DNA of 64,000 nucleotides from Flavobacterium lindanitolerans (GTDB lineage: Bacteria > Bacteroidota > Bacteroidia > Flavobacteriales > Flavobacteriaceae), in NCBI RefSeq assembly GCF_002846575.1, contig NZ_PJND01000007.1, positions 124,001-188,000 on the forward strand, given 5' to 3'. The notes under the pieces are model-generated. The model worked only from the letters and a program-made list of their open reading frames with translations, did no database searches and was not told the DNA's origin. Both the position numbers and the translations under genes were made by a program. Below, piece after piece: positions 8,744-45,238 of the stretch (within the stretch, counting starts at the first letter, position 1; the number at the start of each line of letters is the position of its first letter).

Positions 8744-8764
8744 TTGACCTGTGGCAATTTCGTT

Positions 8765-8821
8765 TTTGTGGCTCTGCGTCATTGCGTGAAATAGTTGCTC
8801 GCAAAGACGCAGAGTCGCAAA
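8765..8821. repeat. palindromic hairpin repeat, copy A
   Basis: Arms 8765-8788 and 8798-8821 (24 nt each) pair with four mismatches around a 9-nt loop, AAATAGTTG. The right arm begins CTCGCAAAGACGC. Arms and loop match the hairpins at 22823-22877 and 45179-45238; this copy is in the opposite orientation, because its loop is the reverse complement of CAACTATTT. No T-run follows, so it is not a simple terminator. Confidence 0.85.
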
Positions 8822-8911
8822 CCAAACGTATTAGAAATATTTCGGTGCAAAGTTTCAAACACCTTTCATAAAATCATACTTTAAACAGTTAAAAAGAACT
8901 GTCTGAAACAG

Positions 8912-22801: not shown

Positions 22802-22822
22802 GTTCTATTTTTGATATATTGA

Positions 22823-22877
22823 TTGCGCCTTAGCGCCTTTGCGAGCAACTATTTCTCGCAAAGGCGCTAAGGCGCAA
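22823..22877. repeat. palindromic hairpin repeat, copy B (perfect)
   Basis: A perfect 23-bp inverted repeat: arms 22823-22845 (starts TTGCGCCTTAGC) and 22855-22877, loop CAACTATTT (9 nt). It lies between two convergent genes. Same arm pattern and loop as copies at 8765 and 45179. The arm bases differ from those copies (GCGCCTTAGCGCC instead of GGCTCTGCGTC) but both arms changed together, which is compensatory change preserving the hairpin. Confidence 0.9.
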
Positions 22878-22918
22878 AGTTATTTGATGCAGACTCAATA
22901 ATTATTTTGAATCTTGTC

Positions 22919-40278: not shown

Positions 40279-42123
40279 ATGAATTTTACAAAAAAAATAA
40301 ACCTGTTAGTGTTCCTTTTATCGGTTTCGGCTTTCGCCCAAATTGATAAGATAGAGCCTCCTTTCTGGTACGCCGGAATGCATAACCCTGAACTTCAGAT
40401 TATGTTTTACGGAAAAAACATAGCACAGTACGAAGCCTCCGTTTCTAACAATGTGGTTATCAAAAACGTGGTAAAAACTGAAAATCCTAACTACATTTTC
40501 ATTACAATCGACACAAAAAATATTCCTGCTTCTGATTTTGTCTTTTCATTCAAAAACAAAAACAAGGTAGCCTTTACAAAAAAATATACGCTGAAAGCTA
40601 GACGTAAAAATTCGGCTCAGCGAAAAAGTTTTGATTCATCAGACCTAATCTATCTTATCATGCCGGACCGTTTCGCCAATGGTAATCCAAACAACGATAC
40701 CGATAAATCGTTGAATGAAAAAGCAGACCGCAGCCTTCCGGGAGGTCGTCATGGCGGAGATATCGAAGGAATCATAAAACACTTAGATTATTTGGAAGAA
40801 TTAGGCGTAACAGCAATTTGGAGCACACCACTTTGCGAGGACAACGATAAAGTTCATTCGTACCATACCTACGGACAGTCTGATGTGTACAAAATTGACC
40901 CGCGTTATGGAACCAATGAAGAATATGTTCGCCTTTCGGCAGAATTGAAAAAACGTAACATGAAACTCATCAAGGATTATGTGACCAACCATTGGGGTGC
41001 AGAACACTGGATGTATAAAGACCTGCCTACCTATGATTGGATTCACCAATTCCCAGGGTTTTCGCAATCTAATTATAGAATGACAACACAATTTGACACC
41101 AATGCTGCTGCTATTGATGCCAAAAACTGTATGGACGGATGGTTTGTTCCTTCCATGCCCGATTTGAATCAATCCAATCCGTTAGTCTTGAATTACCTGA
41201 TACAAAATGCTATCTGGTGGATTGAATATGCTGATTTGGATGGATTTAGAGTCGACACCTATTCTTATAATGACAAAATCGGGATTGCAAAATGGACGAA
41301 AGCCATCACCGACGAATATCCGTATTTCAACATTGTAGGCGAAGTCTGGATGCATGACCAGGCTCAGATGTCGTATTGGCAAAAAGACAGTCCAATCAGT
41401 GCCATACAGAGTTATAACTCCTACCTGCCAAGCGTTATGGATTTTACATTGCACGATGCTTTTGGAAATGTTTTCAACGAAGACAAAGCCACGTGGAATG
41501 ATGGGATGATTAAGGTATACGATAATTTCGCCAATGATTTTTTATATCCTAACGTAAACAACCTTCTGACTTTTGTAGAAAACCACGATACCGGAAGATT
41601 TAACCACATCTACAAAAACGATTTCAGGAAATACCAGATGGCTATGGCGTTAATCGCTACCGTGCGCGGAATTCCGCAAATCTATTATGGTTCCGAAATC
41701 GGAATGGCGGGAGACAAAGGAAAAGGAGATGCCGATATCCGTCAGGATTTTCCGGGTGGATGGACAGGTGATAAAAACAACGCTTTCACCAAAGCCGGAA
41801 GAACGGAAGAGCAAGCTAAGTTTTTTGACTTCTCTTCAAAATTATTCCAATGGAGAAAAGGGAAATCCGTTATCCATTCCGGTAAAATGACACATTACAT
41901 CCCGGAGGATAATGTGTATGTTTATTTCAGATATAATGACAATGAAACCGTGATGGTAATCATCAACAATGCTGCTCAGCCAAAAACATTTAAGACCGCA
42001 CGTTTTCAGGAAAACATCAAAGACTTTACGTCAGGAAAAGATGTGCTGACAGGAAAATCTATTAATGTAAAAGAAGATATAAGTATAGAAGAAAAATCAG
42101 TCCTGATATTGGAGTTAAAATAA
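40279..42123 (+). CDS. periplasmic GH13 neopullulanase/cyclomaltodextrinase-like (SusA-like)
   Basis: 614 residues with a Sec signal peptide ending SAFAQ, so periplasmic. An N-terminal cyclomaltodextrinase-type beta-sandwich (about 22-110: IEPPFWYAGMHNPELQIMFYG in pieces) precedes the GH13 barrel. Catalytic residues are Asp326 in DGFRVDTYSYND, Glu355 in IVGEVWMHD and Asp437 in VENHDTGRF; PDRFANGNPNND supplies the N-terminal calcium-site pattern. This matches SusA-type enzymes that cut imported maltodextrins to maltose and glucose. It is the last gene of the maltose operon before the GxxExxY cassette. Confidence 0.94.
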   Translation: MNFTKKINLLVFLLSVSAFAQIDKIEPPFWYAGMHNPELQIMFYGKNIAQYEASVSNNVVIKNVVKTENPNYIFITIDTKNIPASDFVFSFKNKNKVAFTKKYTLKARRKNSAQRKSFDSSDLIYLIMPDRFANGNPNNDTDKSLNEKADRSLPGGRHGGDIEGIIKHLDYLEELGVTAIWSTPLCEDNDKVHSYHTYGQSDVYKIDPRYGTNEEYVRLSAELKKRNMKLIKDYVTNHWGAEHWMYKDLPTYDWIHQFPGFSQSNYRMTTQFDTNAAAIDAKNCMDGWFVPSMPDLNQSNPLVLNYLIQNAIWWIEYADLDGFRVDTYSYNDKIGIAKWTKAITDEYPYFNIVGEVWMHDQAQMSYWQKDSPISAIQSYNSYLPSVMDFTLHDAFGNVFNEDKATWNDGMIKVYDNFANDFLYPNVNNLLTFVENHDTGRFNHIYKNDFRKYQMAMALIATVRGIPQIYYGSEIGMAGDKGKGDADIRQDFPGGWTGDKNNAFTKAGRTEEQAKFFDFSSKLFQWRKGKSVIHSGKMTHYIPEDNVYVYFRYNDNETVMVIINNAAQPKTFKTARFQENIKDFTSGKDVLTGKSINVKEDISIEEKSVLILELK

Positions 42124-42129
42124 ATTAAT

Positions 42130-42689
42130 CTCGCAAAGGCGCAGAGACGCAAAGTTTTTCCCTTTGTTGCTTTTGGGTATTGCAGAAGGAAAGAAAGACT
42201 CTTTCAAATGCGGAAGAACAAAATTTCATAAATTGCATATCTCTGCATAAAGAATAAACGCCATAAATAATTAATATCTGCCAAAATGAAAGAAAACGAA
42301 TTATCTCGAATCATAGTTAATTTATGCTTCGAAATACACACAAAATTAGGGCCTGGTCTTTTAGAAAGTGTCTATGAAGCAATTCTAGTTTATGAACTTA
42401 CAGAAATGGGGTTGAAAGTTGAAAGACAAAAATCACTACCCGTAATCTGGAATGACATAACGATGAGTATTGGTTTCAGAGCAGATATAATTGTAGAAAA
42501 TTTAGTACTCATAGAAATAAAATCTGTTGCAGAGATTGCGCAGGTACATTTAAAACAAGTATTGACCTATCTAAAAATAACAGGATTAAAATTGGGGTTG
42601 CTGGTCAACTTTAACGAACCCTTAATCAAAAACGGAATCAAAAGAATAGTGAACAACTTATAATCTTTGCGTCTCTGCGACTTTGCGAG
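42130..42689. mobile_element. candidate GxxExxY cassette bounded by 25-bp inverted repeats
   Basis: Ends are 42130-42154 (begins CTCGCAAAGGCGC) and 42665-42689 (ends GACTTTGCGAG), inverted relative to each other with one mismatch in 25. The only gene inside is the GxxExxY gene. The arms are the same sequence family as the hairpins at 8765, 22823 and 45179, but here they face the other way (the loop-side end is outward). No target-site duplication is visible. Mobility is inference. Confidence 0.5.
42286..42663 (+). CDS. GxxExxY protein (PD-(D/E)XK-like)
   Basis: 125-residue protein named for the motif seen here in GPGLLESVYE (about residues 22-31). After it come IGFRADIIVENLVLIEIKS, with an Asp and a Glu-x-Lys spaced like a PD-(D/E)XK nuclease core (D-x13-ExK type), and KQVLTYLKITG. 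No role is established for the family; it is placed in the PDDEXK_3 group. It interrupts a starch-utilisation gene order, is AT-richer by eye than its neighbours, and is bracketed by 25-bp inverted repeats, the right one starting 1 nt after the stop codon. All this suggests a mobile or repeat-linked gene rather than part of sugar metabolism. Confidence 0.9.
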   Translation: MKENELSRIIVNLCFEIHTKLGPGLLESVYEAILVYELTEMGLKVERQKSLPVIWNDITMSIGFRADIIVENLVLIEIKSVAEIAQVHLKQVLTYLKITGLKLGLLVNFNEPLIKNGIKRIVNNL

Positions 42690-42705
42690 AACAAAAACGA
42701 AATCT

Positions 42706-44142
42706 ATGAAAAAAACAATCTTATTAGCTGTAGCATTAGCGGCTTTTATCAGCTGCAAAGACGACAAAAAAACAGAAGGAACAACCGCTGCAAAAACAGA
42801 AACTATTGCCCCGATAACGGATGCAACAGCAGAAAATGCGGTTATTTATGAAGCCAACATTCGTCAATATTCACCAGAAGGAACTTTTAATGCTTTTACG
42901 AAAGACATTCCGGAATTGAAAAAATTGGGTGTAAAAATTATTTGGCTGATGCCTATCTATCCTATTTCGATGAAAAACAGGAAAGCTACCGGAGAACTTT
43001 CTGTAGAAGACATTAAAGACCCGAAAGAAAAGGCCAAATACTTAGGAAGTGCTTATGCCATATCAGACTATACGGCTATCAATCCGGATTACGGAACCAA
43101 AGAAGATTTCAGGAATCTGGTAAAAACAGCCCATGAAAATGGTATGTATGTCATTCTTGACTGGGTAGCAAACCACACCGGATGGGACCATAAATGGATT
43201 ACGGAACATCCGGAATACTACCATAAAAATGCAAAAGGTGAAGTAACCGACCCTCTTAATCCGGAAACAGGGAAATCATGGGGTTGGACAGATGTTGCTC
43301 ATTTGAATTATGCCAACAAGGAACTTCACAAAGCCATGGAAAACGAAATGTTATATTGGGTAAAAGAAGAAAATATCGACGGTTTCCGTTGTGATGTTGC
43401 AGACAATGTTCCTGCCGAATTCTGGCAAAAGGCAATTCCTGAACTGCGAAAAGTGAAACCTGTATTCATGCTGATGGAATCCAACAAAAATTATCTTTTA
43501 AAAGATGGACTTTTTGATATGGGATATGGCTGGGAAGCGCACCACGTGATGAACGACATTAACAAAGGCACAAAAACAGTCAAAGACCTGGATAACGTAT
43601 TTGATAAAATTGCTAAAGAATATGAGAAGAATGATTTTTTCATGAACTTCACTTCAAATCATGACGAAAATTCATGGAACGGAACCGAATATGAAAGAAT
43701 GGGTGACGGCGTAGAAGCTTTTACGGCACTAACCTACCTGATGCCGGGAATGCCGCTTATCTATACAGGTCAGGAATATGACCTGAAACACCGATTGAAA
43801 TTCTTCGAAAAAGACTCAATCCCTAAAACAAAGGCAAAAATGTTCCCTATCTATGAAAAATTGGGTGAATTAAAAAACAACAATATTGCCTTGAATGGCG
43901 GTAAAAATGCGGCTTCTTTCAAACGTTTGGCAACTTCAAACGATACGAATGTTCTTGCTTTTGAAAGAGAAAAAGAAAATCAGAAAGTTTTCTTTATTGG
44001 AAACCTATCTAAAAAAGACCAGCAATTCACGGCTCCGGTTGAAGGCACATTTACCAATTATATGACCGGCGAGAAAATAACATTGGCAAAAGACCAGAAA
44101 TTCAGTTTCAAGCCTTGGCAATATTATATTTTGGTTAAATAA
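42706..44142 (+). CDS. GH13 alpha-amylase-family lipoprotein
   Basis: 478 residues. The start at 42706 is chosen because it gives a lipoprotein signal (MKKTILLAVALAAFISC, then KDDKK); a TTG further up lies in the hairpin repeat. The compact GH13 barrel carries Asp230 (IDGFRCDVADN), Glu258 (VFMLMESNK) and Asp320 (TSNHDENSWNG). The calcium-binding and NH motif is DWVANHTGWDHKW. No accessory binding module. The lipid anchor may place it on the periplasmic or outer face. It is separated from the preceding maltose genes by the GxxExxY cassette, whose right arm ends 17 nt before this start. Confidence 0.92.
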   Translation: MKKTILLAVALAAFISCKDDKKTEGTTAAKTETIAPITDATAENAVIYEANIRQYSPEGTFNAFTKDIPELKKLGVKIIWLMPIYPISMKNRKATGELSVEDIKDPKEKAKYLGSAYAISDYTAINPDYGTKEDFRNLVKTAHENGMYVILDWVANHTGWDHKWITEHPEYYHKNAKGEVTDPLNPETGKSWGWTDVAHLNYANKELHKAMENEMLYWVKEENIDGFRCDVADNVPAEFWQKAIPELRKVKPVFMLMESNKNYLLKDGLFDMGYGWEAHHVMNDINKGTKTVKDLDNVFDKIAKEYEKNDFFMNFTSNHDENSWNGTEYERMGDGVEAFTALTYLMPGMPLIYTGQEYDLKHRLKFFEKDSIPKTKAKMFPIYEKLGELKNNNIALNGGKNAASFKRLATSNDTNVLAFEREKENQKVFFIGNLSKKDQQFTAPVEGTFTNYMTGEKITLAKDQKFSFKPWQYYILVK

Positions 44143-45178: not shown

Positions 45179-45238
45179 CTTTGCGGCTCTGCGTCTTTGC
45201 GAGCAATTATTTTCACGCAAAGACGCAGAGCCGCAAAG
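45179..45238. repeat. palindromic hairpin repeat, copy D
   Basis: Arms 45179-45203 (starts CTTTGCGGCTCTGCGTC) and 45214-45238, one mismatch in 25, loop CAATTATTTT (10 nt). The loop agrees with CAACTATTT of the copy at 22823 except for one change and one extra T. Confidence 0.88.

Follow-up and report, generated by a model that had tools for sequence, protein, structure and literature searches.

A 562-nt unit in a 64,000-nt stretch of Flavobacterium lindanitolerans DNA (contig NZ_PJND01000007.1, positions 124,001–188,000, catalogued as G000:C7:124001-188000 and hereafter called the window; genome size, 3.72 Mb) parts two amylase-like genes of one starch operon, and consists of a single GxxExxY gene, encoding a protein with a PD-(D/E)XK nuclease fold, between inverted arms made of short repeated units. 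This unit is very probably a copy of a widespread hairpin-armed intercistronic element. The association of such arms with GxxExxY genes extends across phyla, the arms and the protein diverge in parallel, the units lie between co-directed genes, and one site occurs in gene-bearing, gene-less and empty states, with a past change of place of a protein clade. In the explanation favored here, the GxxExxY protein would recognize and cut its own arms and thereby mobilize armed segments with or without the gene; this reading as a whole is given a probability of about 0.5.

The left arm (42129–42157, plus strand; TCTCGCAAAGGCGCAGAGACGCAAAGTTT) contains three 7-nt units, CGCAAAG, CGCAGAG, and CGCAAAG, at 8-nt spacing, and is of an arm type found at GxxExxY genes elsewhere. 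The right arm (42662–42690, minus strand) is its inverted copy. In a repeat search of positions 42000–42800, these 29-nt arms were the single inverted pair, with 93% complementarity and 504 nt between them, and the terminal repeats could form a stem in which 27 of 29 positions are complementary. A preliminary description had presented the ends as 25-bp inverted copies with one mismatch, which holds within the longer arms. The same description correctly placed the GxxExxY gene (42286–42663, plus strand; 125 amino acids; PF13366 and TIGR04256 matches) as the sole gene inside and the start of the right-arm core 1 nt past its stop codon. The co-directed upstream amylase-like gene (40279–42123, plus strand; 614 amino acids) stops 5 nt ahead of the left arm. 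The co-directed downstream amylase-like gene (42706–44142, plus strand) begins with ATG at 42706; the unit therefore ends close before the next start codon, as had been described, but at a distance of 16 nt rather than 17 nt. Rfam models at gathering scores detected two tRNAs in the window and nothing else.

The arm core CGCAGAGACGCAAAG has eight matches in the window with at most two mismatches, compared with 0.06 expected, and none of 100 shuffled sequences reached eight. These matches correspond to the two arms of the unit and two gene-less hairpins, at 8764–8822 and 45179–45238, the latter in an inside-out orientation relative to the unit; the view that arms and stand-alone hairpins form one family is thus borne out. 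A third gene-less hairpin of this family (22821–22879) has matched changes in both arms (CTTAGCG and CGCTAAG).

GxxExxY genes were found by family search in 60 of 100 genomes, with up to nine per genome. The GxxExxY loci analyzed, like the S23 loci described below, are the best-scoring ones listed rather than a random sample, and L074 was excluded as a duplicate of L181. Inverted arms of periodic units flank 76 of 92 Flavobacteriales GxxExxY loci at scores above 95% of controls, which were 171 other open reading frames (ORFs) from the fetched loci; 47 loci exceed 99% of these controls and 18 exceed the control maximum. Units of several types occur, including CGCAAAG, CACAGAG, CACAGATT, CGCAGATT, CGAATTAA, CATTAAG, and CATATAAG, with a mean of about two direct units per arm by strict motif. 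The left-arm unit is directed toward the gene in 58 loci and away from it in none, with 16 ties (n = 74). Arms vary between loci, yet match within a locus: the median within-locus score is 19, whereas that for upstream and downstream arms of different loci is 10, in a comparison that included some minus-strand loci not yet turned. The between-locus control is long-tailed (95%, 15.5; 99%, 27.6; maximum, 156.5) because syntenic and overlapping loci are among the pairs, and 12 of 72 GxxExxY loci exceed its 99% level. In one locus (L107, G005:C24), two GxxExxY genes with 77% identical DNA lie about 1.5 kb apart.

The association extends well beyond Flavobacteriales. At least 589 GxxExxY relatives were matched by one peptide pattern alone, and the best 80 of these formed a cross-phylum set, of which 78 loci were long enough for arm scoring. 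Among these best-listed loci, 66 of 78 score higher than 95% of shifted controls, and 27 score higher than any of them. Against the ORF controls, scores at the 60 loci with labels other than Flavobacterium are above the 95% level in 49, the 99% level in 26, and the maximum in 10. The preliminary description had anticipated an excess of arms around other GxxExxY genes, and this is present both here and in Flavobacteriales. CGCAAAG-like arms also occur in cyanobacteria, planctomycetes, verrucomicrobia, and proteobacteria, and CTCACGCAAAGNCGCAAAGNCGCAAAG-like arms flank GxxExxY genes in Nostoc (L297), Planctomycetales ZRK34 (L276), Cerasicoccus (L310), and others; several further loci are from metagenome assemblies and were taken by label as given. 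In four loci (L279, L280, L291, and L329), the arms appear reversed in a simple test, and the gene has hairpins on both sides or hairpin arrays; in L287, G059, and G154, a hairpin lies to the left of the gene and a single arm to the right. GxxExxY genes are also present in eight plasmid records. Arms were found in three of the four read, from Bacteroides finegoldii, Sphingomonas, and Bernardetia, whereas those at the Fusobacteria plasmid gene are not above background. The armed unit lies between radA and an FAD-protein gene in the B. finegoldii record, and between fabD and fabG in the Sphingomonas record. The corresponding radA gap is 13 nt in Parabacteroides and contains a different open frame in Phocaeicola; the fabD gap is 30 nt in Rhizobium and short in S. 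paeninsulae.

These features bear on the simplest alternative, that ordinary host terminators or attenuators flank the gene by chance. Hairpins that adjoin gene ends would fit such an explanation. However, the arm type follows the protein across groups, the within-locus arm match (median 19) exceeds the between-locus match (median 10), and arms lie on both sides of a gene placed between co-directed genes. This alternative is already contradicted, and its probability is very small.

Arms and GxxExxY protein diverge in parallel. In 48 loci, protein identity tracks arm similarity with a Spearman coefficient of 0.383, compared with a null maximum of 0.198 (0 of 1000 permutations); loci labelled Flavobacterium, loci with weak arms, and loci with arms longer than 60 nt were dropped from this set, which retains one contig of the window's genus (L267, from G001). 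In a wider set of 122 loci with scores of at least 15 (7201 pairs), the correlation is 0.36, compared with a null maximum of 0.161 in 500 permutations; some of these loci are present twice via two sources, and the synteny filter was crude. The continued match between left and right arms, although both change, points to a constraint. Left–right similarity within a locus is higher than left–left similarity between species in 8 of 11 syntenic groups, but arms were picked as the best left–right match, which biases the test in this direction; the idea of concerted arm evolution is weakened accordingly.

Armed units are positioned in sense between genes of the same direction. For armed Flavobacteriales GxxExxY units, 67 of 71 upstream genes are co-directed, with the stop codon at a median of 7 nt from the left arm, and 59 of 66 downstream genes are co-directed, at a median of 12 nt; these counts refer to genes within 400 nt, and five more units had none upstream and 10 more had none downstream. 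In the cross-phylum contig set, Flavobacterium included, the upstream gene is co-directed in 45 of 55 cases and the downstream gene in 41 of 52. When loci with or without arms are considered, both neighbors are co-directed with the GxxExxY gene in 73 of 84 (eight more were undetermined). Elsewhere in the same loci, 165 of 218 adjacent pairs are on the same strand, and random orientation would give both neighbors co-directed in about 38%. The sense position may reflect merely that the GxxExxY gene has no promoter of its own.

A similar layout was found for an unrelated protein. S23 four-helix-bundle genes (TIGR02436) are present in 77 of the 100 genomes, the highest number in one genome being 16. 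Of the S23 loci read (e.g., L061–L090 and L181–L200), 42 of 49 have inverted periodic arms, with units such as CTAAGTTT, TTAGACTT, and CAAAGGTT. Both neighbors are co-directed in 47 of 47 S23 loci (two were undetermined). In armed S23 units, the upstream gene is co-directed in 38 of 38 cases at a median of 3.5 nt and the downstream gene in 35 of 35 at a median of 8 nt. Arrays of S23-type units (CTAAGGTT-like, in several copies) also lie between the alaS stop codon and the terminator in eight genomes (L454, L456, L457, L459, L438, L443, L444, and L445); these are gene-less and, by eye, mostly have no inverted partner. The Coxiella intervening sequence, as the accessible part of one report describes it, has an S23 ORF between 28-bp inverted repeats with tandem heptamers and is cut by RNase III in vitro, and intervening sequences are proposed there to have been formerly mobile (PMC4990558).

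These observations raise the possibility that the unit functions as an RNA-level intervening sequence, with the arms pairing in the transcript, RNase III excising the unit, and the nuclease being either cargo or an RNA-acting enzyme. The sense-only position between co-directed genes, which is so frequent for both GxxExxY and S23 when set against other gene pairs in the loci, is consistent with this, as are the layout shared by S23 genes and the RNase III cleavage in Coxiella. However, operon position is equally expected of any promoterless gene that needs expression. Moreover, if pairing in RNA were under selection, arm mismatches on the sense strand should favor G–U over A–C, and they do not: 61 are G–U and 73 A–C for GxxExxY, and 24 are G–U and 37 A–C in loci whose labels start with a letter other than F. 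For S23, the skew is in the opposite direction, with 18 G–U and 46 A–C (p = 6e-4). Selection for an RNA stem is therefore rejected or at least weakened by this test. A single enclosing stem is also missing in loci where hairpins stand on both sides of the gene. Overall, an RNA-level explanation appears unlikely.

In addition to the gene-bearing units, genomes that carry the gene have scattered hairpins with the same arms and no gene. The F. lindanitolerans genome has 41 matches to the 15-nt core with at most one mismatch, while a control pattern has none, and 90 matches to the full arm pattern with at most two mismatches. All 23 hairpins read in this genome (L003–L030) are inside-out relative to the unit, with CTTTGCG on the left and CGCAAAG on the right. 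This relation had been noted in the preliminary description and stands for this genome, but not elsewhere: gene-less copies in five other Flavobacteriales genomes (G006, G015, G042, G052, and G059) read AATCT-CGCAAAG...loop...CTTTGCG-AGATT, the orientation of the element itself, and in other groups the inside-out order was seen only in L414, one of 20 loci read. Inside-out hairpins are thus a trait mainly of this one genome. Most of its 23 hairpins share an asymmetric loop like TGAAATAGTTGCT, with matched arm changes chiefly at two spacer positions. In G057, a tandem series of about six CACGAATT hairpins with a common spacer follows the amylase gene (L353).

Hairpin abundance is partly explained by lineage. 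Nine of 11 genomes with a GxxExxY protein of the window-like clade (at least 65% identity) have 10 or more arm hits, compared with 5 of 89 genomes without it, where hits include the arms of the unit itself. The idea that hairpin number simply follows the matching protein clade is weakened, as 10 of the 14 hit-rich genomes are at least 4.6 Mb in size, which suggests, without a tree, a single lineage. In other groups, the arm pattern was detected in 17 of 22 GxxExxY genomes, with 1 to 46 hits per genome and none for the control. Hairpins also nest in one another. Twelve widely spaced hairpins were chosen by eye from the five other Flavobacteriales genomes, and in 9 of 11 spacers of at least 59 nt, a second inverted repeat scores above all 50 shuffled sequences.

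Nesting argues against the idea that the arms are iterons for self-regulation of the operon, with the other hairpins being further operators and mobility having no part. Several direct units per arm, arms near the stop and start codons (medians, 7 and 12 nt), and the long retention of units in syntenic loci are all features that such operators might have. Yet hairpins lie in one another's loops, the hairpin type at one site differs between species, and the supposed regulator retains its nuclease residues, so that a purely regulatory role seems improbable.

The amylase site provides evidence for the history of the unit. The closest of 299 genomes searched, G150, has 86% identity on one side of the site and 89% on the other; the same genes there enclose a gene-less hairpin composed of a left arm, a degenerate right arm, and a loop of 9 nt between them. 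In G055, G024, G126, and G267, the site is empty, with gaps of 19, 5, 6, and 24 nt between the flanking genes; the description of the unit as splitting a starch operon is thus upheld. The gene is also absent from this locus in some relatives, whereas its fixation there with no arms would have spoken against the earlier proposal. G059 has a GxxExxY gene with CGCAAAG arms at the site. In G030:C8, G036:C1, G028:C52, and G048:C160, a GxxExxY gene only 34–41% identical to that of the window adjoins the same amylase gene, indicating that the operon was entered more than once; the arms of the two read, in G030 and G036, are of the CATTAAG type. Gene-less hairpins of other unit types lie at the site in G007, G240, G284, and others, and some share their unit with arms of other GxxExxY clades. 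In addition, ten genomes, G000 (the F. lindanitolerans genome), G059, and G150 not among them, have a GxxExxY gene after alaS, mostly with CGCAAAG-type arms. The occurrence of the clade at the alaS site on the one hand and the amylase site on the other indicates that it has changed place.

A hairpin in G150 exactly where G000 and G059 have the gene is also what would be expected if gene-less hairpins were only footprints, i.e., units that lost the gene by deletion between the arms and had no movement of their own. This would explain the state of one site, but it accounts poorly for genomes in which a single matching gene contrasts with tens of arm hits, for unrelated hairpins within hairpin loops, and for a loop conserved in most of the 23 copies in the F. 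lindanitolerans genome. Loss of the gene as the sole origin of the hairpins is accordingly rather improbable.

The arms, their co-divergence with the protein, the gene-less copies, the nesting, and the alternating states of one site are best explained together by a unit-recognizing nuclease that acts on hairpins. In such a model, the element is one Cas4/Hjc-like PD-(D/E)XK nuclease gene between inverted arms, each with about two to three short units, and would insert in sense between co-transcribed genes, thereby being expressed by the host operon. The nuclease would recognize the unit array of its own arms, either as duplex iterons or in the form of a DNA hairpin or cruciform, and might cut there; cutting would preserve the match between the left and right arms and between arms and protein. 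Armed segments, either complete or lacking the gene, could thereby be moved or copied to the gaps between cistrons or to the loops of other hairpins, and gene-less hairpins would be non-autonomous copies. Judging from the sequence comparisons, recognition of its own arms by the nuclease is probable. That nuclease action on the arms is the mechanism behind the whole pattern is about evenly balanced.

Several observations weigh against this model. The correlation between protein and arms would arise by itself if gene and arms were inherited together as a single segment. Sixteen of the 92 Flavobacteriales loci and 11 of the 60 non-Flavobacterium loci have no arms above 95% of controls, and the arms of the second GxxExxY gene of the F. 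lindanitolerans genome (L091, G000:C9:211793-212131) are not above background (score, 11.0). Some genomes are rich in hairpins without having the matching clade (G042, G015, G006, G049, and G057, with 45, 35, 30, 29, and 19 hits, respectively), and a second clade test, with CACAGATT arms, gave a weak difference (5 of 14 vs 6 of 86). Eight short hairpin loops from other Flavobacteriales genomes all differ, contrary to what recent copying would produce. In other groups, 20 dispersed arms were read; seven form an inward pair, one forms an outward pair, and 12 lack an inverted partner at distances up to 400 nt. GxxExxY loci themselves account for at least two of the pairs (L417 and L418). Dispersed hairpins are thus well shown in Flavobacteriales and only partly in other groups. 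In the displayed portion of a comparison of 141 loci, each against all others, most copies are old and occupy syntenic positions in more than one species, and neither near-identical copies at new sites nor any case of fresh transposition was seen. Target duplication, which the preliminary description proposed to find at empty sites, could not be defined in G150, G055, or G024, which are too diverged at the junction.

The protein itself is a well-defined member of its family. The window protein matches PF13366 (E = 2.5e-39; 134.7 bits, cut-off 22) and TIGR04256 (E = 1.7e-41; 141.3 bits, cut-off 35), and the GxxExxY motif is present as GLLESVY. In an alignment of 77 GxxExxY sequences, from which rows containing a stop were left out, E27, D67, E77, and K79 (the last two as E77-x-K79) are invariant and Q91 is nearly so; the nuclease residues are intact. 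The structure model has a pLDDT (predicted local distance difference test) score of 95.3, and the fold is like that of Cas4, archaeal Hjc, and lambda-exonuclease-like PD-(D/E)XK nucleases, although no sequence relative was found among solved structures (best E = 0.63). The GxxExxY gene has no match in 50,697 phage records, and PADLOC defense-system matches are weak only (best E = 0.0058); a PHROG labelled CRISPR/Cas associated matches residues 60–108 (E = 3.5e-5). In the literature searched, mostly outside subscription papers, no description of this system was found under arm sequences, REPIN-like Bacteroidetes systems, intervening sequences, or Flavobacterium repeats, and the arm sequences used as terms gave no match. 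The passages available on GxxExxY give no function, with just a neighbor label and a viral gene list.

The recurrence of GxxExxY gene and arms as a package, along with scattered gene-less arms, in many bacterial groups provides this unstudied protein family with a partner that can be tested. Should the enzyme act on its own arms, an orphan nuclease family and a class of dispersed repeats in many phyla would be explained together, and a compact sequence-specific nuclease whose specificity shifts with a readable unit would be at hand; the unexplained origin of rRNA intervening sequences would perhaps also be accounted for. More tentatively, hairpin-armed intercistronic elements that lack promoters may form a class that spans phyla and is led by two or more unrelated proteins, among them GxxExxY and S23, each reading its own unit. 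In this class, arms and protein would co-diverge, gene-less hairpins would be non-autonomous passengers, and intervening sequences of 23S rRNA would be members that landed in rRNA. Such a class would give a named enzyme to a large share of the dispersed intergenic hairpins of bacteria.

Among known systems, the S23 intervening sequences of 23S rRNA genes likewise have, in the available part of the report, one small ORF within inverted repeats of about 28 bp made of short tandem units, and are suspected to be mobile (PMC4990558). S23 genes in the genomes studied here have the intercistronic layout in common with GxxExxY units. Unlike the window unit, which lies between amylase-like genes, intervening sequences sit in rRNA genes, and their protein is a four-helix bundle whereas the window ORF belongs to PF13366. 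RNase III cleavage is shown for intervening sequences in that part of the report (PMC4990558).

Miniature inverted-repeat transposable elements (MITEs) and their parent insertion sequences resemble the present system in that gene-bearing and gene-less copies have inverted ends in common. Here, however, there is no recognized transposase and no target duplication was found at the diverged sites compared, and the ends vary between copies while left and right remain matched.

In REPtrons, a lone nuclease-like gene, that for the REP-associated tyrosine transposase (RAYT), lies within inverted repetitive extragenic palindromic (REP) sequences, and gene-less hairpins of the same repeats (REPINs) are dispersed in the genome. 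The plan of the window unit, a gene flanked by inverted copies of a dispersed repeat, is alike. The enzyme of REPtrons is an HUH/Y1 transposase, whereas that of the window unit is a PD-(D/E)XK enzyme with PF13366 and TIGR04256 as its only matches. REPs have a GTAG or CGTC tag at the foot of the palindrome; in the arms of the window unit as read, no fixed foot tag was seen, and CGTC occurs inside the right arm. REPs are single palindromes, whereas the arms described here are periodic arrays of units, and similar units recur across many phyla in a position between co-directed genes.
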